Shown here: piece by piece, positions 8,628-23,554 of the stretch | Layout: every line of letters starts with the position of its first letter | Position numbering within the stretch: the first letter of the stretch is position 1 | NCBI RefSeq assembly: GCF_000504285.1 | Contig: NZ_KI632511.1 | Location: forward strand, 5,314,154-5,378,153 | DNA from: Actinospica robiniae DSM 44927 | Lineage (GTDB): Bacteria; Actinomycetota; Actinomycetes; Streptomycetales; Catenulisporaceae | Direction: 5' to 3' | Length of the DNA stretch: 64,000 nt | Notes under the pieces: model-generated | Database searches by the model: none | What the model saw: the letters and a program-made list of their open reading frames with translations, nothing else | What the model was told of the DNA's origin: nothing | Made by a program: the position numbers and the translations under genes

Positions 8628-9119
8628 ATGGCGTTTCTGAAGAAGGTCGCCACAATCGCCGTGCTGGCCGGTGCGGGCGTCATGGCCACCGCCGGCCTCG
8701 CGGCCGCGGACTCGGGCGACAACACGACGCACCAGGCCGGCCTGGTCGACGTGAACGCGCTCAACAACGTTGACGTCTCGCCGAACCTCGGCTGCCTGGG
8801 CGACGGCACGCTGCGCGACCTGACGCTGCAGAGCCTGATCGGCATCGTGCCGATCGGCGTGGGCGCCGACCACCTGCTCGAGCACACCAGCCTGAACCTG
8901 CTGGCCAACGGCAACACCTCGACCGAGGTGGAGGACTACTCCTGCACCTCCGACGAGGGTTCGTCGCAGGCGGGCAACGACAGCCACCGCAGCATCGGCG
9001 CGGGCAGCAGCTACAGCGAGCACGAGACCGGCAAGGACGCCGGTTCGCACAACTCGAAGGACGGCGAGGGCGCGGGCGGCCTGCTGGGCGGCACCGGCAT
9101 CCTCGGCACCGGCCTGTAA
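8628..9119 (+). CDS. Rodlin-like secreted surface protein 1
   Basis: A 163-residue secreted protein with a signal peptide (cleavage near GLAAA, about residue 27). The central part has a cysteine in NLGCLG, then QSLIGIVPIGVG and a second cysteine in EVEDYSC. The SLIG(I/L)VPI segment between two cysteines resembles the streptomycete rodlins RdlA/RdlB, which help organise chaplin fibrils on aerial hyphae. A Ser/Gly/Asp/His-rich tail ends GGLLGGTGILGTGL. It converges with a close paralogue at 9503. ATG 8628 has GAGGA upstream. Family assignment rests on remembered motifs only. Confidence 0.55.
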   Translation: MAFLKKVATIAVLAGAGVMATAGLAAADSGDNTTHQAGLVDVNALNNVDVSPNLGCLGDGTLRDLTLQSLIGIVPIGVGADHLLEHTSLNLLANGNTSTEVEDYSCTSDEGSSQAGNDSHRSIGAGSSYSEHETGKDAGSHNSKDGEGAGGLLGGTGILGTGL

Positions 9120-9502: not shown

Positions 9503-10027
9503 TTACAGGCCGGTGCCGAGGATGCCGGTGCCGCCGAGCAGGCCGCCCGCACCCTTGCCGTTCTCGGAGTTGTTCGCGCCCGCGTCGGTCCCGGCGCTGT
9601 GCACGTCCGAGCTGCTGCCCGCGCCCACGCTGCCGTGGCTGTTGTTGCCGGCCTCGGACGAGCCCTCGTCCGAGTTGCAGGAGTAGTCCTCCACCTCGGT
9701 CGAGGTGTTGCCGTTGGCGAGCACGTTGAGGCTGGCGTGCTGGAGCAGGTGGTTCAGGCCGACACCGATCGGGATCAGGCCGATCAGGCTCTGCGCGGTC
9801 AGGTCCGGAGCGGTCTGGTCCAGCAGGCAGCCGGCGTTCGGCGAGATGTCGGTGTTGTCGAGCAGGTTCACCGGGATCAGACCGTCCTGCTGCAGGTGGT
9901 CATCGCCCGCCTGCGGGGAGGCCGCCGGGCCCCACGCGCCTTCGTCAGCCGCCGCCATGCCGGCTGCGGACATGACGCCCGCGCTGGCGAGAACGGCGAT
10001 GGTCGCGGCCTTCTTCAGCAATGCCAT
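9503..10027 (-). CDS. Rodlin-like secreted surface protein 2
   Basis: A 174-residue paralogue of the protein at 8628, on the opposite strand and facing it. It shares the MA(F/L)LKK-type signal peptide, CLxD/CLGD cysteine region, QSLIGLIPIGVG, the NGNTSTEVEDYSC block and the identical C-terminal GAGGLLGGTGILGTGL. The final codons are nearly identical at DNA level too, pointing to recent duplication or gene conversion. ATG 10027 is chosen because the signal peptide then starts MALLKK, matching the paralogue. The likely role is assembly of the hydrophobic surface layer. Confidence 0.55.
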   Translation of the reverse strand: MALLKKAATIAVLASAGVMSAAGMAAADEGAWGPAASPQAGDDHLQQDGLIPVNLLDNTDISPNAGCLLDQTAPDLTAQSLIGLIPIGVGLNHLLQHASLNVLANGNTSTEVEDYSCNSDEGSSEAGNNSHGSVGAGSSSDVHSAGTDAGANNSENGKGAGGLLGGTGILGTGL

Positions 10028-10127
10028 GTTGATCGTTCTTCCTGTGGGATGCATATCACATTTTTAATGGATCAGATAGCGGAAGCCCGCTGTCGCGCAT
10101 TTCTGAACGTAGCAGCCTTCAGACTGA

Positions 10128-14460: not shown

Positions 14461-14580
14461 GTGCAGCACCAGCTTGTGAAATGGGCTGGGTATGCCCGAA
14501 ACCAGATCAAGGAAGCGACGTCAGAGCGGGCATCCGCACCGCAGCCGGCGCAGACTGGATACGAAAGGAGCAGGACCATC

Positions 14581-14733
14581 ATGGACAACACTGAGAAGTC
14601 CCTTGTCACCTCGAACCTGGACGACGTTCGTCAGGCCCCGCTCGGCGCGCTGCCGAGCGCCGAGACCCTGCGCCGCGTTCGGCCGGCTGACAGCAAGCGG
14701 GTTCCGGTCGCCGCGTTCAACGCATCGCTCTGA
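14581..14733 (+). CDS. fxsA: FxsA-type RiPP precursor peptide ending FNASL
   Basis: A 50-residue peptide with an acidic/polar leader and C-terminal [11 protein letters not shown]. In the FxSxx-COOH family the C-terminus reads F-x-S-x-x and is processed by the radical SAM enzyme FxsB. Related maturases join an aromatic ring to the beta-carbon two residues later, giving a three-residue cyclophane. Here the third position is Ala48, not Ser, with Ser at 49. Start ATG 14581 has AAGGAG and AGGA upstream. Its identity rests on the C-terminus plus the adjacent FxsB, FxsC and FxsT genes. Confidence 0.82.
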
Positions 14734-14908
14734 TGAGGACGGGGCGCTACGCCGCCCTCGATCCGCGCGATCGCCGATAGGATTTCGGGGCCTTTCGGCC
14801 TAACTTCACCCCACAGCTCCACGTCGGCCGGTTCGCCAGGCGAGCGGCCGGCGTGGAGCCTCGGCTTTGCCGTCCCGTCGAGGCCCGTCCCGTCGAGGTA
14901 GGTCACCC

Positions 14909-17311
14909 GTGCCCGCCCGCTCCGCCCCCTTCCGCCAGTTCGTGATCAAGGTGCATTCGCGCTGCGACCTGGCGTGCGACCACTGTTATATGTACGAGGC
15001 GGCCGACCAGGGCTGGCGCGGCCAGCCGATGGTGATGAGCGTCGCGACGGCCGGGGCCATCGGGGACCGGATCGCCGAGCACGCGGCCGGCGCCGAGCTG
15101 GGGCTGGTCCGGGTGGTGCTGCACGGCGGCGAGCCGCTGCTGGCCGGGGCCGAGCGGCTCGGCGAGATCATCGACGCGATCGGCGATCCGATCCGGCAGC
15201 TGCCCTCCCCGCCCCGGCTGGACCTGCGTATCCACAGCAACGGGGTGCGCCTCGACGAGACGCTGTGCGACCTGTTCGCCAAGCACCACGTCAAGGTGGG
15301 CATCTCCCTCGACGGCGACCGCGTGGCCAACGACCTGCACCGCCGCTACGCCAACGGACGCTCGAGCCATGCCCAGGTGCTCGACGCCCTGGCCCTGCTG
15401 CGTACGCCGCGCTACCGGCACCTGTACGCCGGGATCCTGTGCACCATCGACCTGCGCAACGACCCCGTCTCGGTCTACCATGCCCTGGCCGCCGAGCAGC
15501 CGCCGCGGATCGACCTGCTGCTGCCGCACGCCACCTGGGATGTCCCGCCCCCGCGCCCGGACGGCATCGCCCGTCCGTCCACGGCCGCGGACCCGGCCTA
15601 CGCGCGATGGCTGCTGAGCGTGTACGAGGCCTGGGACGCCGACGGCCGGCCCTTCGGCATCCGGATCTTCGACTCGATCCGCTCCACGCTGCACGGCGGC
15701 CCGCCGCTGACCGAGGCCCTGGGCCTGGCCCCGAGCGACGTGCTGGTCATCGAGACGGACGGCGCCATCGAGCAGGCGGACTCGCTCAAGGTCGCTTTCG
15801 ACGGGGCCGTGGACACCGGCCTCAACGTCCACCGCGATCCGCTCAGTGCCGCCTCCGCGCACGCGCAGATCGCCGCGCGGCAGGACGGCCCGACGGCGCT
15901 CAGCGCGCAGTGCCGGTCCTGTCCGGCGCTGGCCAGCTGTGGCGGCGGGCTCTACGCCCACCGCTACAAGTCCGCGGCCGCCTCCGCCGACGATCCGGCC
16001 GCCGCCTTCCGCAATCCCACGGTCTACTGCGCCGACCTGCTCCACCTCGTCTCCGACCTCCACGACCGAGAAAGCCGCGACGCCACCTCCATGCCACGGC
16101 TCAGCCTGCACTCCGATCAACTCGACCAGCTCGCCGCCGGGTACGGCGGAGCCGAAGCGCTGCGCCAGCTGGGCGCGGGCCAGGCCAGCGTCAACCGGGC
16201 CCTGCTGGCCGGGGTCGGGGCCGCCCTCGCCGACCAGCACTCCGAAGCGGCCCGGGCCTGGGAACTGCTCCTCGCCCTCGACGCCGCGCATCCGGAGGCG
16301 GTGGCCGAGGCCGTCGCGCACCCTTTCTTCCGTCCCTGGGCGCTGGATGTGCTCGACGATCCGGTGGCCGCGCACCCCGCCCCGCTGATCGGGTACGCGC
16401 TGACCGCCGCGTCGCTGGCAGGGCAGCCGGCCGAGCTCCCGGTGCCGCCCGACTCCACCGGCATCGATCTGCCGGGCATCGGCCGGATCGCCGTGGTGGA
16501 GGCAGTCGCAGGGCTGGAATCCGGCGGTGCGCCGCGCGCTTTGATCGAGGCGGCGCGCTACCTGGGCGACGGCGTATCCGTGCCGCGGGTGCTGCTCGAA
16601 GACCTCGACCCGAGCCGCGACTGCTTCCACACGCCGCTGGTGCCACGGCTCTCCGAGGACGAGCTCGATCGCTGGCGCGAGGCCTTCGCCCAAGCCTGGC
16701 GGTTGATCGAGCAGCAGTACCCGGAGTACGCCCCGGCCCTCGCCGGCGCGCTGCGCGCCCTGGTGCCGCTGCCGCCCGCGCTGGACGGGCACGCCGTCAG
16801 CGGCACCGCGCGGCAGGCGTTCGGCGCGCTCGGACTCGCCCTGCCCGAGGACCCGCGCGTCCTCGCCCTCCTGCTCATCCACGAGTTCCAGCACGTGAAG
16901 CTGGGCGCCGTGCTCGATCTCTACGACCTCTACGACGAGGCCGACACACGGCTCTACTATGCGCCCTGGCGCGAGGATCCGCGCCCGCTCGAAGGCCTGC
17001 TCCAGGGCACGTACGCCCACGTCGCAGTGATCGACTACTGGCTGCGGCGGATCGAGAGCGACGAGGCCGCGCAGATCCACTTCGCCCGCTGGCGCGCCCA
17101 GACCTGGGCCGCTCTGGACGTACTCGAGGACTCCGGCTCGCTGACCGCGCTCGGATCGCAGTTCGTCGCCGGGCTGCGCGCCACCGTGACGCCGTGGCTG
17201 GAGGTGCCTGTCTCCGAAGCGGCGCACGAGGCCGCGGTACACACCAGCTCCGCCCACCGCGCCGCTTTCGAATCAGGCGCGCCCGCCACTGCGGCGGCCC
17301 GTCTTAGCTAA
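14909..17311 (+). CDS. fxsB: FxsB radical SAM/SPASM peptide maturase fused to a HExxH domain
   Basis: An 800-residue fusion. The N-terminal half is a radical SAM enzyme with C19-x3-C23-x2-C26 for the 4Fe-4S/SAM site, GGEPLL, and a SPASM-type cysteine set (C335, C338, C344, C374). It should cross-link the FxsA C-terminus. The C-terminal half contains H658-E-F-Q-H662 in a helix, the HExxH domain that accompanies fxs systems and in related proteins acts as a peptide beta-hydroxylase. GTG 14909 is chosen because the protein then starts MPARSAPFRQFVIKVHSRCD, close to the iron-sulfur motif as in relatives, with GAGGTAGG upstream. It follows fxsA by 175 bp. Confidence 0.88.
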   Translation: MPARSAPFRQFVIKVHSRCDLACDHCYMYEAADQGWRGQPMVMSVATAGAIGDRIAEHAAGAELGLVRVVLHGGEPLLAGAERLGEIIDAIGDPIRQLPSPPRLDLRIHSNGVRLDETLCDLFAKHHVKVGISLDGDRVANDLHRRYANGRSSHAQVLDALALLRTPRYRHLYAGILCTIDLRNDPVSVYHALAAEQPPRIDLLLPHATWDVPPPRPDGIARPSTAADPAYARWLLSVYEAWDADGRPFGIRIFDSIRSTLHGGPPLTEALGLAPSDVLVIETDGAIEQADSLKVAFDGAVDTGLNVHRDPLSAASAHAQIAARQDGPTALSAQCRSCPALASCGGGLYAHRYKSAAASADDPAAAFRNPTVYCADLLHLVSDLHDRESRDATSMPRLSLHSDQLDQLAAGYGGAEALRQLGAGQASVNRALLAGVGAALADQHSEAARAWELLLALDAAHPEAVAEAVAHPFFRPWALDVLDDPVAAHPAPLIGYALTAASLAGQPAELPVPPDSTGIDLPGIGRIAVVEAVAGLESGGAPRALIEAARYLGDGVSVPRVLLEDLDPSRDCFHTPLVPRLSEDELDRWREAFAQAWRLIEQQYPEYAPALAGALRALVPLPPALDGHAVSGTARQAFGALGLALPEDPRVLALLLIHEFQHVKLGAVLDLYDLYDEADTRLYYAPWREDPRPLEGLLQGTYAHVAVIDYWLRRIESDEAAQIHFARWRAQTWAALDVLEDSGSLTALGSQFVAGLRATVTPWLEVPVSEAAHEAAVHTSSAHRAAFESGAPATAAARLS

Positions 17312-17351: not shown

Positions 17352-18134
17352 ATGGAGCCACGCGGCATCCCGCTGCGCGCGCAGTTGACGCACCTCGGGC
17401 TGAGCACCGGACAGACGGTCCTGGTGCACAGCTCGCTGCGCAGCGTCGGCTGGATCCCTGGCGGCGCCGCGGCGTTGCGCGACCTGCTGCTCGACATCCT
17501 CGATCCGGCGGACGGCACGCTGGTGGTGCCGACTCAGACCGGGTCGACCTCGGTCACCTCAAGCGGATTCGCGGCCGCCACCGCCGGCCGGTCCGAGGCC
17601 GAGTACCGGGCGTACCTCGACCGGCTGCCCGGCTTCGACGCGGACCACTCCCCCTCGGAGGAGATGGGCGCGCTGGCTGAGGCGGTGCGCACCCACCCGG
17701 ACGCGTGGCGCAGCCCGCACCCGATCACCTCGTTCGCCGCGGTCGGCCGGCTGGCCGCGGAATTGATGTCGGCACATCCGCTCCATTCTCTGCTGGGCAA
17801 GGAATCCCCGCTCGGCCGGCTTTACGAATGCGACGCCCTGGTGCTGTTGATCGGGGTGGGCTACGACAAGTGCACTGCATTCCATCTCGGCGAGAATCCC
17901 GAGATCGCGCCGGAACGGGACTACCGGTGCAAGATCGGCGATTCCTGGCGGCGTTTCCGGGCCCCGGCCCATCGCGACGAGGAATTCGCCGAACTGGGCA
18001 CGATGTTCGAAAGCTCCCGGCCGCACCGGGTGCGCGAGGCGCAGGTCGGCGCGGCCCGCTGCCGGCTGTTCCCGCTGACCGAGGCGGTGGACTACGCCGC
18101 GGTGACGCTGCCCTACCTGCGATTCGCGCGCTGA
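17352..18134 (+). CDS. AAC(3)-family N-acetyltransferase in the fxs locus
   Basis: A 260-residue member of the antibiotic N-acetyltransferase (AAC(3)) family, which transfers acetyl from acetyl-CoA to an amine of aminoglycosides. Family marks are VHSSLRSVGWIPGG near residue 26, SPHPITSFAAVG, and LLIGVGYDKCTAFHLGE holding the active-site region. Its position between fxsB and fxsC suggests it may acylate the peptide or a cofactor, or protect the cell, rather than give drug resistance; this is inference. Start uncertain: ATG 17352 has no strong ribosome binding site and TTG 17337 is possible. Confidence 0.78.
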   Translation: MEPRGIPLRAQLTHLGLSTGQTVLVHSSLRSVGWIPGGAAALRDLLLDILDPADGTLVVPTQTGSTSVTSSGFAAATAGRSEAEYRAYLDRLPGFDADHSPSEEMGALAEAVRTHPDAWRSPHPITSFAAVGRLAAELMSAHPLHSLLGKESPLGRLYECDALVLLIGVGYDKCTAFHLGENPEIAPERDYRCKIGDSWRRFRAPAHRDEEFAELGTMFESSRPHRVREAQVGAARCRLFPLTEAVDYAAVTLPYLRFAR

Positions 18135-18246: not shown

Positions 18247-19545
18247 ATGGGGTCGAGCCTTCGGGATTCCGCGGTCGGCCCCGCTGAGGGCGAAGGCGTC
18301 AGTTTCGGACCCGGCTTCTACTTCAGCTACGCGCACACCCCGCCGCTGCGCGGAGACCGCTCCGATCCGGACTACTGGATCAAGCGCTTCTTCCACGAAC
18401 TCGAGACCGAGGTCCGGCATCTCGACCACCGGCTGCACGGCGGCTTCGTGGACCACCGGATACCGGCCGGCCTGGACCCGGCCGAGTACGCCGCGCACCG
18501 GCTGGCCGAATGCCGGGTGTTCGTCCCGCTCTACGGCGACAACTACTTCGAGAGCGAGAAGTGCGGCCGGGAATGGGCCGTGTTCGAGCGCCGGCGCCGG
18601 CTGCGCAAGGCCCGCACCGGCGACGACGGACGCTCGATCGTCCCGGTGCTCTGGACCCCGAGCACCCGCGAGCAGCCCGACTGCGCCCGCCGGGTGCCGC
18701 CGGCCCGGCTGCTCGAGAACGACCTGTACCTGGATCTCGGGCTCTACCAGCTGATCCGGCTCTACGAGCACGAATACCACGAGGCGGTGCTGCGCCTCGC
18801 CCAGCTGATCGTGCACCGCGCCCGGGTCGAGGCGCCGCCGGCGATCTCCCCGGACTCCCACGGCGAGGTCGAGCCCGCCTTCCCCGGCCGGGCCAGTCCG
18901 CAGCGCCCGCTGTACATCGCCGTGGCCGCCGCGGTCCGGCGCACCGTGCCGCGGGAACGCGATCCGGAGTACTACGGCGGCAATCCGGAGGAGTGGCGCC
19001 CCTACCAGCCGCAGGTCGCGGAGCCGCTGGCCGAGCGCGCGGCCCGGATCGCCGGGACGCTCGGCTACTCCGCCCGGATCAGTGTGCTCTCGACCTCCTC
19101 GCCCGAGACGAAGATGCCGGGCCCGCAGCTGGAATCGCAGCGGCAGCAGGGCCCGAGCATCGTGCTGGCCGACCCGTGGGTGTTCGACGGGTTCCCCACC
19201 AGCCGCACCGCGCTGGAGCGGGTGGACCGCTGCCGGCGCGAGACCGTGCGGCTGATGGTTCCGTGGAGCGGCAGCGACGGCGAGACCGCCCGGCAGCGGC
19301 TCTACCTCGAAGCCCGGGTGCAGACCACGGTGCCGTGGATGTTCCGGTGCTGGCGCCGGTCCCTGCCGGAGCGATTACAGGACCTGGCCACGGCCGAGCA
19401 GTTCGACGAGGCCCTGCTCGTGGTGATCGACCGGGCCCGCAGCTACTTCCTGAGCACGAGCGAGCCCCTGCGCAACGCCCCGCTCAACCGCTACTCGAGC
19501 CGGCCGAGGCTGGCCCCGGCACCGCACGAGGAGTCCCCGCCGTAG
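18247..19545 (+). CDS. fxsC: FxsC, TIR-like protein of the FxSxx system
   Basis: A 432-residue protein. The N-terminal domain (about 20-180) has the TIR-like opening FYFSYAHT, a VFVPLYGDNYF strand and a SIVPVLW strand. The C-terminal half (about 215-410) is the FxsC-type domain with PLYIAVAAAVRRTVPRERDP and a second Rossmann-like strand pattern. TIR-like domains sense or signal by protein interaction or NAD handling; the activity here is unknown. Leu377 is encoded by TTA (19375-19377), the rare codon read by bldA tRNA in streptomycetes. fxsT follows 82 bp later. Confidence 0.82.
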   Translation: MGSSLRDSAVGPAEGEGVSFGPGFYFSYAHTPPLRGDRSDPDYWIKRFFHELETEVRHLDHRLHGGFVDHRIPAGLDPAEYAAHRLAECRVFVPLYGDNYFESEKCGREWAVFERRRRLRKARTGDDGRSIVPVLWTPSTREQPDCARRVPPARLLENDLYLDLGLYQLIRLYEHEYHEAVLRLAQLIVHRARVEAPPAISPDSHGEVEPAFPGRASPQRPLYIAVAAAVRRTVPRERDPEYYGGNPEEWRPYQPQVAEPLAERAARIAGTLGYSARISVLSTSSPETKMPGPQLESQRQQGPSIVLADPWVFDGFPTSRTALERVDRCRRETVRLMVPWSGSDGETARQRLYLEARVQTTVPWMFRCWRRSLPERLQDLATAEQFDEALLVVIDRARSYFLSTSEPLRNAPLNRYSSRPRLAPAPHEESPP

Positions 19546-19627: not shown

Positions 19628-22600
19628 ATGAGCGCACGCAAGCCGGGTCAGGTCGTCACCTTCTACTCGTACAAGGGCGGCACCGGCCGCACCATGTCGC
19701 TGGCCAACATCGCCTGGATCCTGGCCGCGAACGGCAAGCGGGTGCTGATGGTGGACTGGGACCTGGAATCCCCCGGGCTGCACCGGTACTTCGCCAAGTC
19801 GCTGCTCGACCCGGACGCCCTGGCCGCGACCAAGGGCGTGGTCAACATGGTGCGCGAGTTCGAGGACTCGGCCGCGGAGACACCGGAGGAGCAGCGCGGC
19901 TCGAACTTCTACCGCGACCTGGCCCGGGTCAGCGACTACGCGATCGCCATCCGCTGGCCCTTCCCCGACGGCGGCGCGCTGCACTACATGTCGGCCGGCC
20001 TGCAGAACCGCAGCTACTCCAGCGCGGTGGCCAGTCTGGACTGGGAGCGCTTCTACGAGCACCTCGGCGGCGGAGAGCTGTTCAACGCCTTCCGCGCGGA
20101 CATGAGGGCGAACTACGACTACGCGCTGATCGACAGCCGCACCGGCCTGAGCGACGTCGCGGACATCTGCACCCTGCACCTGCCCGACGTCATCGTGGAC
20201 TGCTTCACCCTGAACAACCAGGGCCTGGAGGGCGCGCTGACCGTGGCCGGCGGGGTCGCGAAGTTCACCAACCACCCGATCCGGCTGCTGGCCGTGCCGA
20301 TGCGGGTGGACGAGGCGGAGAAGAACAAGGCCGACGCCGGCCGGGCGGCGGCCCGCGAGCGCTTCGCCGACCTGAAGATAGAGGAGCTCGCCTCGCCCCG
20401 GTACTGGGGCCAGGTCGAGATCCCGTACGTGCCCTTCTACAGCTACGAAGAGACCCTGGCCACCTTCGCCGACAGCCCCAACGACCGGCACACCCTGCTC
20501 GACGCCTACCTCAGGCTGACCGCCGTGCTGACCGAAGGCGAGGTGCGCGAGGTGCCCGAGATGGACGACGTGGCCCGGAAACTGGTGCTGGCCGAGGTAT
20601 CCCGGCTCCAGCCGAGCCGGCAGGAGCAGCTGGCCATCGCGTACGTCGCGGAGGACCGGCTGTGGGCCGAGTGGGTCGAGGCGGTCTACCTGCAGGAGGG
20701 CTTCGACGCCCGGATCGTCCCGCTGTTCGACGACCCGGCCACCCGGCCGGTGATCGAGCCGAACACCCGGATCGTCGCGCTGATGTCGGCCGAGACCACC
20801 CGCAACCCCGGCGCCATGATCCAGCTGCGTTCGTGGTCGAACACCGGGCAGCTGTCCGTGGTCGCGCTCTCCGAGCTGCGCTCCGACTCCCGGCTGGCCG
20901 CGGCCTCGACCTGCGAGCTCTACGGGGTGACCGATCCGGCCGCCGCGGCCGCGCAGCTGCTGCGGCTGGTCGGCGTGCCCGAGCCGGAGGCCGTTCAGGC
21001 CCGGCTGCCCGAGGGCCACCGCTACCCGACCGGGCACCCGCGGATCTGGAACGTCAGCGCCCGCTACACCGTCTTCACCGGCCGCGACGAGGCGATGGAG
21101 CGGCTGCGCCAGCAGATCGTGGGCGGGTCGGCGACGGTGATCCTGCCGGTGGCGCTGCACGGCCTCGGCGGCGTCGGCAAGACCCAGCTGGCCCAGGAAT
21201 ACGCGCTGCGCTTCAGCGCCGACTACGACCTGGTGTGGTGGATCAGCGCCGAGTCCACCGAGTTCATCGACGAGGCCCTGGCCGGCCTGGCCCGGCGGCT
21301 GCACCTGCCCGGCTCCGGCGAGTCGATCACCGAGGACTCGCAGCTGGTGCGCGAGGTGCTGCGGCGCGGGGAGGCGGGACGCTGGCTGCTGATCTACGAC
21401 AACGCCACCGACCCGTCCAAGCTCCAGCCGTTCCTGCCCAGCGGCACCTCGGGGCACGTGCTGATCACCTCGCGCAACCAGGCCTGGGCGCAGCGGGCGG
21501 TGCCGCTGGAGGTGGACGTGTTCACCGCCGCGGAGAGCATCGAGCACCTGACCCACACCGTCAACGGCCTGAGCGACCGCGACGCGCTGCGGCTGGCCGA
21601 GCTGGTCGGCCACCTGCCGCTGGCGGTGCAGAGCGCCAGCGCCTGGCTGAGCACCACCGGCACGCCGGTGGAGCAGTACATCCAGCAGCTGTCCGAGCAG
21701 ATCACCCGGGTGCTCGAGACGCCGCCGGAGGACTACCCGGTGTCGGTGGCGGCGACCTGGACCATCGCGCTGCAGGACCTGGAGGAGCGGCGGCCGGCGG
21801 CGGCGCGGCTGCTCGAGCTGTGCGCGTTCATGAACCCGGACGGGATCTCGACGCACTCGATGATCTACACCAACGCGATGCTCGACACCCTGCGCAAGTT
21901 CGACCGCTCGCTCGTGGACATCGGCATGATCGGCATCGTGGTGGCCGAGCCGGTGCGCCTGAGCCTGCTCCAGCTCGACCAGGCGGCCCGCGAGCTGCGC
22001 ATCCACCGGCTGGTCCAGGAGGTCATCAAGGCCCGGATGACCGGGTCGAAGCAGGACGAGGTGGTGCACGCCGTGCACGGCATCCTCGCCGCGGCGCGCC
22101 CGCAGTCCGGGGACACCGACGACCCGGAGAACTGGCCGCAGTACGCGCTGCTGTGGCCGCACATGACCCCGTCGAGGGCGATGGACTGCGACGAGGGCCC
22201 GGTACGCCAGCTGCTGATCGACCGCATCAGGTATCTGTGGAAGCGCGGCGAGTACCAGAACGCGCTGGAGTCCGGCGAGCGGCTCGAGGAACGCTGGCTG
22301 GACCGGATCGACGAGCTCGGCGGCCTGCAGACGGACCCGGGCGGCGTGCTCTACCAGCAGCTGCTGGTGCTGCGGAACCTGCTGGCGAGCATCATGCGGC
22401 TGCAGGGCGACTTCAACCGGGCCTACCAGATCGACTCGGACGTGCTGGCCGAGCAGGAGCGGCTGTTCGGCCCGGAGCACCCGCACACGCTGCTGAGCCA
22501 CCTGTGCATCGCCGGCGACCTGCGCGGCCTCGGCCGGTTCCAGGACGCGCTGGACAGCGACCTGGCGACCTACGAGCGCCACCGCCGGGTCTACCCCGAG

Positions 22601-23554
22601 GGCGACGCGCGGCTGCTCGGCGCGGCGAACAACCTGGCGGTCAACTTCCGTCTGCTGGGCGACTGCTACAAGGCGCTGGAGCTGGATGAGAGCACGTACA
22701 TCCAGCGCCGCTCCACCCTCGGCCCGAAGCACCCGTACACGCTGTATTCGAGCTCGAACCTGGCCCGCGACCTGCGCGACGCCGGCCAGTACACGCAGTC
22801 CACGGACGTGCTGCGGGCGGCCTTGGCGGACTACCGCGAGGCGGTCGGGGACACCAGCCCGGAGACGCTGCGCACGGCCAAGAGCCTGGCCGTGTCACTG
22901 CGCAAGGCCGGCGAACTGGCCGAGTCGGCGACGCTCGCCCGCGAGACCTACGACCGCTACCGCGGCGAGTTCGGCGACACGAACCCGGACCTGCAGTCCT
23001 GCGCCCTGGTCTACGCCGCGGCGCTGTCCGCGGTGGGCGAGCACGGCACCGCGAAGGAGCTGTGCCTGACCGTGCTGGGCCGTTATGAGGAGCAGCTCGG
23101 CGCGCAGCACCCGTACACGCTGTGCTGCCTCAACAACCTGTCCACCTACGTGCGCAAGTCGAACGACTTCGAGGAGGCGCTGGATCTGGCCCGCCGGGCC
23201 TTCGAGGGCCTGAACACGCTGCTCGGCGATCACCACCCGTACACGCTGATCGCGGCCGCGAACGTGGCCAACAGCCTCGTCGACCTCGGCGACCTGCGCC
23301 CCGCCTCCACGCTGGAGGACGAGTCGGCGCGGAAGCTGGCCGGCGTGCTGCGGCCCAAGCACCCGGACGTACTGGCGATCGAGTCCAACCACGCGGCCAC
23401 CCTGGAGAACCTCGGCCACACCGCCGAGTCGGCCCACCTGCGCAGCCGCGTGGTGGCCGACATGGAGGTCACCCTGGGCCACCAGCACTTCAACACCCGG
23501 GCGGCCCGGCAGTCGCAGCGGCTGGACTGGGATCTGGAGCCGCAGCCGATCTAA
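19628..23554 (+). CDS. fxsT: FxsT: ParA-like, TIR-like, NB-ARC and TPR protein
   Basis: A 1308-residue multidomain protein. Residues 1-250 are a ParA/MinD-like ATPase with deviant Walker A KGGTGRT at 16-22 and VDWDLESPG. About 334-450 is TIR-like (QLAIAYVAEDRLWAEWVE). About 490-800 is an NB-ARC/STAND NTPase with GLGGVGKT at 512-519, the Walker B-like LLIYDN and the sensor strand VLITSR. About 900-1300 are TPR/Kinesin-light-chain-like repeats with recurring G..HP(Y/H)TL. This architecture belongs to the FxSxx-system TPR protein. STAND proteins oligomerise on ligand binding, so it is the probable sensor or effector of the locus. ATG 19628 follows AAGAGGTTAGG. The downstream 1.4 kb is a repeat region. 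Confidence 0.88.
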   Translation: MSARKPGQVVTFYSYKGGTGRTMSLANIAWILAANGKRVLMVDWDLESPGLHRYFAKSLLDPDALAATKGVVNMVREFEDSAAETPEEQRGSNFYRDLARVSDYAIAIRWPFPDGGALHYMSAGLQNRSYSSAVASLDWERFYEHLGGGELFNAFRADMRANYDYALIDSRTGLSDVADICTLHLPDVIVDCFTLNNQGLEGALTVAGGVAKFTNHPIRLLAVPMRVDEAEKNKADAGRAAARERFADLKIEELASPRYWGQVEIPYVPFYSYEETLATFADSPNDRHTLLDAYLRLTAVLTEGEVREVPEMDDVARKLVLAEVSRLQPSRQEQLAIAYVAEDRLWAEWVEAVYLQEGFDARIVPLFDDPATRPVIEPNTRIVALMSAETTRNPGAMIQLRSWSNTGQLSVVALSELRSDSRLAAASTCELYGVTDPAAAAAQLLRLVGVPEPEAVQARLPEGHRYPTGHPRIWNVSARYTVFTGRDEAMERLRQQIVGGSATVILPVALHGLGGVGKTQLAQEYALRFSADYDLVWWISAESTEFIDEALAGLARRLHLPGSGESITEDSQLVREVLRRGEAGRWLLIYDNATDPSKLQPFLPSGTSGHVLITSRNQAWAQRAVPLEVDVFTAAESIEHLTHTVNGLSDRDALRLAELVGHLPLAVQSASAWLSTTGTPVEQYIQQLSEQITRVLETPPEDYPVSVAATWTIALQDLEERRPAAARLLELCAFMNPDGISTHSMIYTNAMLDTLRKFDRSLVDIGMIGIVVAEPVRLSLLQLDQAARELRIHRLVQEVIKARMTGSKQDEVVHAVHGILAAARPQSGDTDDPENWPQYALLWPHMTPSRAMDCDEGPVRQLLIDRIRYLWKRGEYQNALESGERLEERWLDRIDELGGLQTDPGGVLYQQLLVLRNLLASIMRLQGDFNRAYQIDSDVLAEQERLFGPEHPHTLLSHLCIAGDLRGLGRFQDALDSDLATYERHRRVYPEGDARLLGAANNLAVNFRLLGDCYKALELDESTYIQRRSTLGPKHPYTLYSSSNLARDLRDAGQYTQSTDVLRAALADYREAVGDTSPETLRTAKSLAVSLRKAGELAESATLARETYDRYRGEFGDTNPDLQSCALVYAAALSAVGEHGTAKELCLTVLGRYEEQLGAQHPYTLCCLNNLSTYVRKSNDFEEALDLARRAFEGLNTLLGDHHPYTLIAAANVANSLVDLGDLRPASTLEDESARKLAGVLRPKHPDVLAIESNHAATLENLGHTAESAHLRSRVVADMEVTLGHQHFNTRAARQSQRLDWDLEPQPI

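Follow-up and report, generated by a model that had tools for sequence, protein, structure and literature searches.

The closest described systems are the FxSxx-COOH/SjiA precursors and their triceptide maturases of the FxsB family (TIGR04268, NF040585, TIGR04269; MscB), which the locus studied here resembles in its operon, in the family of its FxsB and in a C-terminal Phe motif. MscB (IPR026335) was reported to join Phe C4 to the Cβ of Ser, from residue i to i+2, in the accessible part of PMC11002830; the FxsA in the window (the whole 64,000-nt stretch of DNA that was analysed, from the soil actinobacterium Actinospica robiniae) has Ala in place of this Ser acceptor. HaaB and ScaB were reported in the same part of that source to join His C2 to Ala Cβ, also i to i+2. 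The acceptor proposed in the window is likewise the β-carbon of an Ala at i+2; however, the donor is His in HaaB and ScaB (Tyr in a mutant) and would be Phe in the window. The window enzyme was assigned to TIGR04269, and its likeness to HaaB and ScaB is by description. The XncB and OscB triceptides, as described there, have another non-Ser acceptor, with Phe C4 joined to Asn Cβ, resembling the F-x-N precursors of relatives; they differ in their maturase families, and F-x-N was absent from the window. ChlB, with its aKG-HExxH β-hydroxylase ChlH, shares with the window FxsB the combination of radical SAM/SPASM and HExxH in one protein, but acts on another precursor, and ChlH was reported to hydroxylate Asp and His (PMC12636437, accessible part). 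An older genomic survey read the FxSxx zincin-like protein as a peptidase that releases the C-terminal peptide; a part in biological conflict was also predicted there (PMC7159879, accessible part). No Phe-to-Ala cyclophane made by an FxsB enzyme was found in the literature searched, within the accessible scope of PMC11002830. The same holds for reports of F-x-A in FxsB systems; key subscription papers lay outside this literature, and we do not claim that the motif is unpublished.

The fxs operon and its maturase

An intact fxs operon comprising fxsA, fxsB, an AAC(3)-like gene, fxsC and fxsT was located on the + strand, entirely within the window. The precursor gene fxsA (14581..14733, +), whose product has homologs in both A. 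durhamensis and A. acidithermotolerans, starts with ATG at 14581-14583, runs for 50 codons (50 aa) and stops with TGA at 14731-14733, behind a likely ribosome-binding site, AAAGGAG (14564..14570, +). The C-terminal motif F-N-A-S-L-stop (14716..14733, +) is encoded by TTC for F46 (14716-14718), AAC for N47, GCA for A48 (14722-14724), TCG for S49 and CTC for L50. The initial annotation had reported this ending and the GCA codon of Ala48, and its coordinates and residue numbers were exact.

FxsA is encoded next to an FxsB maturase, as is expected of the TIGR04268 (FxSxx-COOH peptide) family, but its tail departs from the C-terminal F-x-S-x-x of that family. The TIGR04268 profile gave FxsA 22 bits, under the curated cut-off of 28 bits. 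Among ten relatives scored, only L297, which ends in FEAVI, passed the cut-off (31.7 bits), and its match ended immediately before the Ala; the F-x-S relatives L035, L174, L071 and L066 scored 21.2, 20.8, 22.1 and 17.7 bits, all under the cut-off. When the A. robiniae genome was scanned with the same profile for a further fxsA copy, nothing scored above the cut-off; the known gene ranked second and the other matches were noise-like.

The maturase gene fxsB (14909..17311, +) encodes 800 aa and passed the curated cut-off of TIGR04269 (FxsB cyclophane maturase; 507.9 vs 370 bits). Its radical SAM/SPASM domain (residues 8-385) is fused to an aKG-HExxH domain (residues 593-756), which scored 174.6 bits with TIGR04267 (cut-off 40) and has kept RPLEG...YAH and the metal-binding motif HEFQH of the β-hydroxylase domain (residues 658-662; 16880..16894, +). 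Cysteines C19, C23 and C26 of CxxxCxxC and C335, C338 and C344 of SPASM were invariant in 19/19 aligned proteins. Judged by the conservation of CxxxCxxC, the SPASM cysteines and HEFQH, FxsB is intact. The AlphaFold model had a mean pLDDT of 82.1 and a pTM of 0.59, with several segments below 50, which include residues 24-33, beside the motif that binds the cluster, and residues 342-371 of the SPASM region. The HExxH half of the model matched the fold of crystal entry 22ob, titled SjiH-Ni, at 41% identity, a further likeness to the FxSxx-COOH/SjiA system. ChlB entries 9gm3 and 9gmc were matched as well, 9gm3 by the radical SAM half, and 8s5f (ChlB HExxH domain) was matched by the HExxH half.

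The AAC(3)-like acetyltransferase gene (17352..18134, +) scored 213 bits with PF02522 and 136.3 bits with NF033082, the latter below the cut-off of 270, and a homolog was found downstream of FxsB in 49/80 named loci (flanks ≤4 kb). It is followed by fxsC (18247..19545, +), whose N-terminal part is TIR-like (NF040588, 161.6 bits, cut-off 130; TIGR04276, 121.5 bits, cut-off 55), and by fxsT (19628..23554, +), which encodes an AAA, NB-ARC-like and TPR protein of the FxSxx system (NF040586, 948 bits, cut-off 300). The spacer between fxsA and fxsB, 178 nt from the last fxsA sense codon to the fxsB start, is unusual, spacers being shorter than 100 nt in 265/285 called loci, with a median of 25. A 15-bp inverted repeat with a 14-nt loop (14816..14859, +) was located there by inverted-repeat and folding analysis; the 182-nt stretch containing this hairpin had a folding z-score of -2.3, and no Rfam family matched the hairpin at the gathering threshold.

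The third motif residue in relatives

The initial annotation had suggested a comparison of FxsA C-termini in relatives. For this comparison, 434 pooled loci were reduced to 336 distinct FxsB, a sample drawn by FxsB similarity and not at random. All counts came from a precursor caller that was blind to the third motif residue and accepted upstream reading frames ending in aromatic-x-x-x-x at a score of 4 or 5. FxsA was called upstream in 287/336 loci (259 at score 5); on the opposite strand, used as control, the caller returned 2/336, both at score 4, and nothing at score 5. The third residue was Ser in 269 of the called precursors, Ala in 13, Asn in 3, and Pro and Gln in 1 each. FDPVW (L059) and FSQRL (L364), both at score 4, were judged chance calls and excluded as variants. 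FSASG for L137 was spurious; it came from an earlier caller with a bias towards S or A as third residue, whose output does not enter the counts. No FxsA was called for 49/336 FxsB, many of them stand-alone or split proteins, whose precursors may lie elsewhere.

The Ala precursors ended in FNASL (window and L043), FDASL (L018), FDAII (L050), FDASI (L056), FDAAL (L267), FEAVI (L297) and, in six of the 13, FQASI (L101, L178, L187, L309, L311 and L312). The three Asn precursors, FSNFV (L322), FQNSI (L327) and FGNYI (L373), adjoin fused FxsB of one group that are 72-77% identical. The second motif residue was acidic in 5/13 Ala and 8/272 other precursors (Fisher p = 9e-5, computed on related rows with kinship ignored). 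A leader P-[LMF], considered as a mark of an intact leader, was non-discriminating: where FxsB is fused and HExxH intact, 127/199 Ser and 5/11 Ala precursors had it.

Within Actinospica, FxsA of A. durhamensis also ends in FNASL, with the Ala codon GCG instead of the GCA of the window, and its FxsB is 78% identical. The third genome, that of A. acidithermotolerans, has the tail FNSSL and an FxsB of 66% identity; VAAFN directly before residue 48 is common to all three orthologs. The silent difference between GCA and GCG suggests that Ala is maintained. A five-member FQASI group likewise varied silently between GCT and GCC, so that in both groups Ala was kept while its codon drifted. Judged by these sequence comparisons, the FNASL form of the FxsA core is genuine and has been maintained.

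On a FastTree phylogeny of 284-285 FxsB radical SAM domains, at least about 7 changes between Ser and Ala were required, an approximate count given open forks and long branches, with the direction of each change unset. After 50 label shufflings, 11 to 13 changes were needed, which argues that the Ser/Ala state of these sequences is in part inherited, with repeated switches. Acrocarpospora pleiomorpha (L101, FQASI) and L174 (FQSSI), which its group code marks as a congener, have FxsB that are 95.5% identical, indicating that the switch of residue needs little or no change in the enzyme. In this pair nature has already set up a test of whether a methyl group is enough for FxsB or the enzyme depends on the activated C-H that serine offers. 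When FxsB columns were examined for convergence in Ala lineages, 9 had gained the same residue in 3/7 contrasts and none in more; these are raw counts, and no conclusion is drawn from them. Separately, the HExxH motif was lost in 68/294 fused FxsB, and the HExxH state (fused and stand-alone) changed at least 12 times on the FxsB tree.

In this sample, the motif in the FxSxx name is a consensus, with Ser at the third position, less often Ala, and Asn in one clade. Ser at this position is the majority state and, as far as these sequences go, seemingly no requirement; once this is recognized, the puzzle of FNASL largely dissolves. Genome mining would miss likely precursors if it demanded F-x-S or a TIGR04268 score above the cut-off.

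A predicted Phe46-Ala48 ring and its alternatives

The reading we prefer, with a probability of about 70%, is that FxsB tolerates Ala and couples the ring of Phe46 to the β-carbon of Ala48, the serine hydroxyl being unneeded for ring closure. FxsB would bind the FxsA leader, and the 5'-deoxyadenosyl radical would take a hydrogen from the β-carbon at motif position 3, which in this precursor is the methyl group of Ala48. This carbon would then join the Phe46 ring, giving a three-residue Phe-Asn-Ala cyclophane whose register matches that of Phe-Asn-Ser, and the fused HExxH domain would probably β-hydroxylate the ring product, at a site left unspecified. The i to i+2 links reported for MscB, HaaB and ScaB, taken together, make a Phe46-Ala48 methyl link the simplest account, and by analogy the His-Ala cyclophanes of HaaB and ScaB are a chemical precedent for an Ala acceptor (PMC11002830, accessible part). 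Against this reading, Ala is the minority state, and a minority variant can mark differently processed precursors; FxsA also scored under the TIGR04268 cut-off, as did four F-x-S precursors (17.7-22.1 bits), and the accessible literature yielded no Phe-to-Ala cyclophane from an FxsB enzyme.

The interpretation in the initial annotation was partly supported. It rightly argued that the i to i+2 rule places the acceptor on Ala48, so that the link needs a methyl group, and of its three options the one favoured by the comparison, that serine is not required, agrees with Ala in 13/285 precursors with Ser, Ala or Asn, with the at least 7 changes on the tree and with Asn in 3. The option of a shift of register to Ser49 fared poorly, as set out below. 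It overlooked the reported methyl acceptors, the HExxH domain and the status of FxSxx as a consensus, not an invariant rule. With an aKG-HExxH hydroxylase domain in FxsB, mass shifts besides the -2 Da expected of a cross-link become relevant.

The activated C-H of serine is absent from Ala. On this general chemical ground, Ala48 might abolish cross-linking and leave FxsA unmodified, modified by HExxH only, or decaying. We regard this as unlikely, since Ala was retained in two groups of precursors although its codon had changed silently, the tail and the operon are intact, and HaaB and ScaB were reported to use Ala (PMC11002830, accessible part). A further point against it is ChlH, whose hydroxylation was reported to require a pre-formed ring (PMC12636437, accessible part).

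A shift of register, in which FxsB would join Phe46 to Ser49 in a four-residue ring, is slightly less probable. Ser occupies motif position 4 in 10/13 Ala precursors, those of the window and A. durhamensis among them, as this shift would predict; however, it is absent from FDAII, FDAAL and FEAVI, is common in F-x-S precursors too (123/269), and stands beside the third-position Ser in the sister ortholog FNSSL. The triceptide links reported in the accessible part of PMC11002830 run from i to i+2.

It is more doubtful still that serine is dispensable only where HExxH is active. A fused-HExxH FxsB would then close the Phe-x-Ala ring on the unactivated methyl group, and the HExxH domain would β-hydroxylate the linked carbon to give the product of a Ser precursor, making Ser interchangeable with Ala plus a hydroxylase. 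The HExxH state was classified by alignment at the loci of 284 precursors, and an intact HExxH domain or gene accompanied 12/13 Ala precursors. However, intact HExxH was common anyway (215/284), Ala occurring in 12/215 loci with it and 1/69 without (Fisher p = 0.20), and 200 Ser precursors have intact HExxH, which would need another target there. The HExxH of L267 (FDAAL) is degenerate. About 6/7 independent tree pairs had the same HExxH state in both members and gave the association no support. With this p value, the degenerate domain of L267 and the uninformative pairs, the idea that the hydroxylase supplies the missing serine hydroxyl is unsupported.

An error of sequencing or assembly at codon 48, for which a single base change from Ser TCA to Ala GCA would suffice, is very unlikely and has next to no weight among the readings, because the independent A. 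durhamensis genome encodes FNASL with GCG, not GCA, and Ala was found again in other families.

Further observations in the genome and the window

A second cyclophane-type maturase, AmcB-like, is encoded in the A. robiniae genome (L001, C1:6106656-6107735; NF041718, 568.7 bits, cut-off 425); its upstream reading frames were listed and no precursor was identified among them. Within the window, two similar small, secreted-looking proteins are encoded in opposite orientation at 8628-9119 (+) and 9503-10054 (-), both ending in GGLLGGTGILGTGL.
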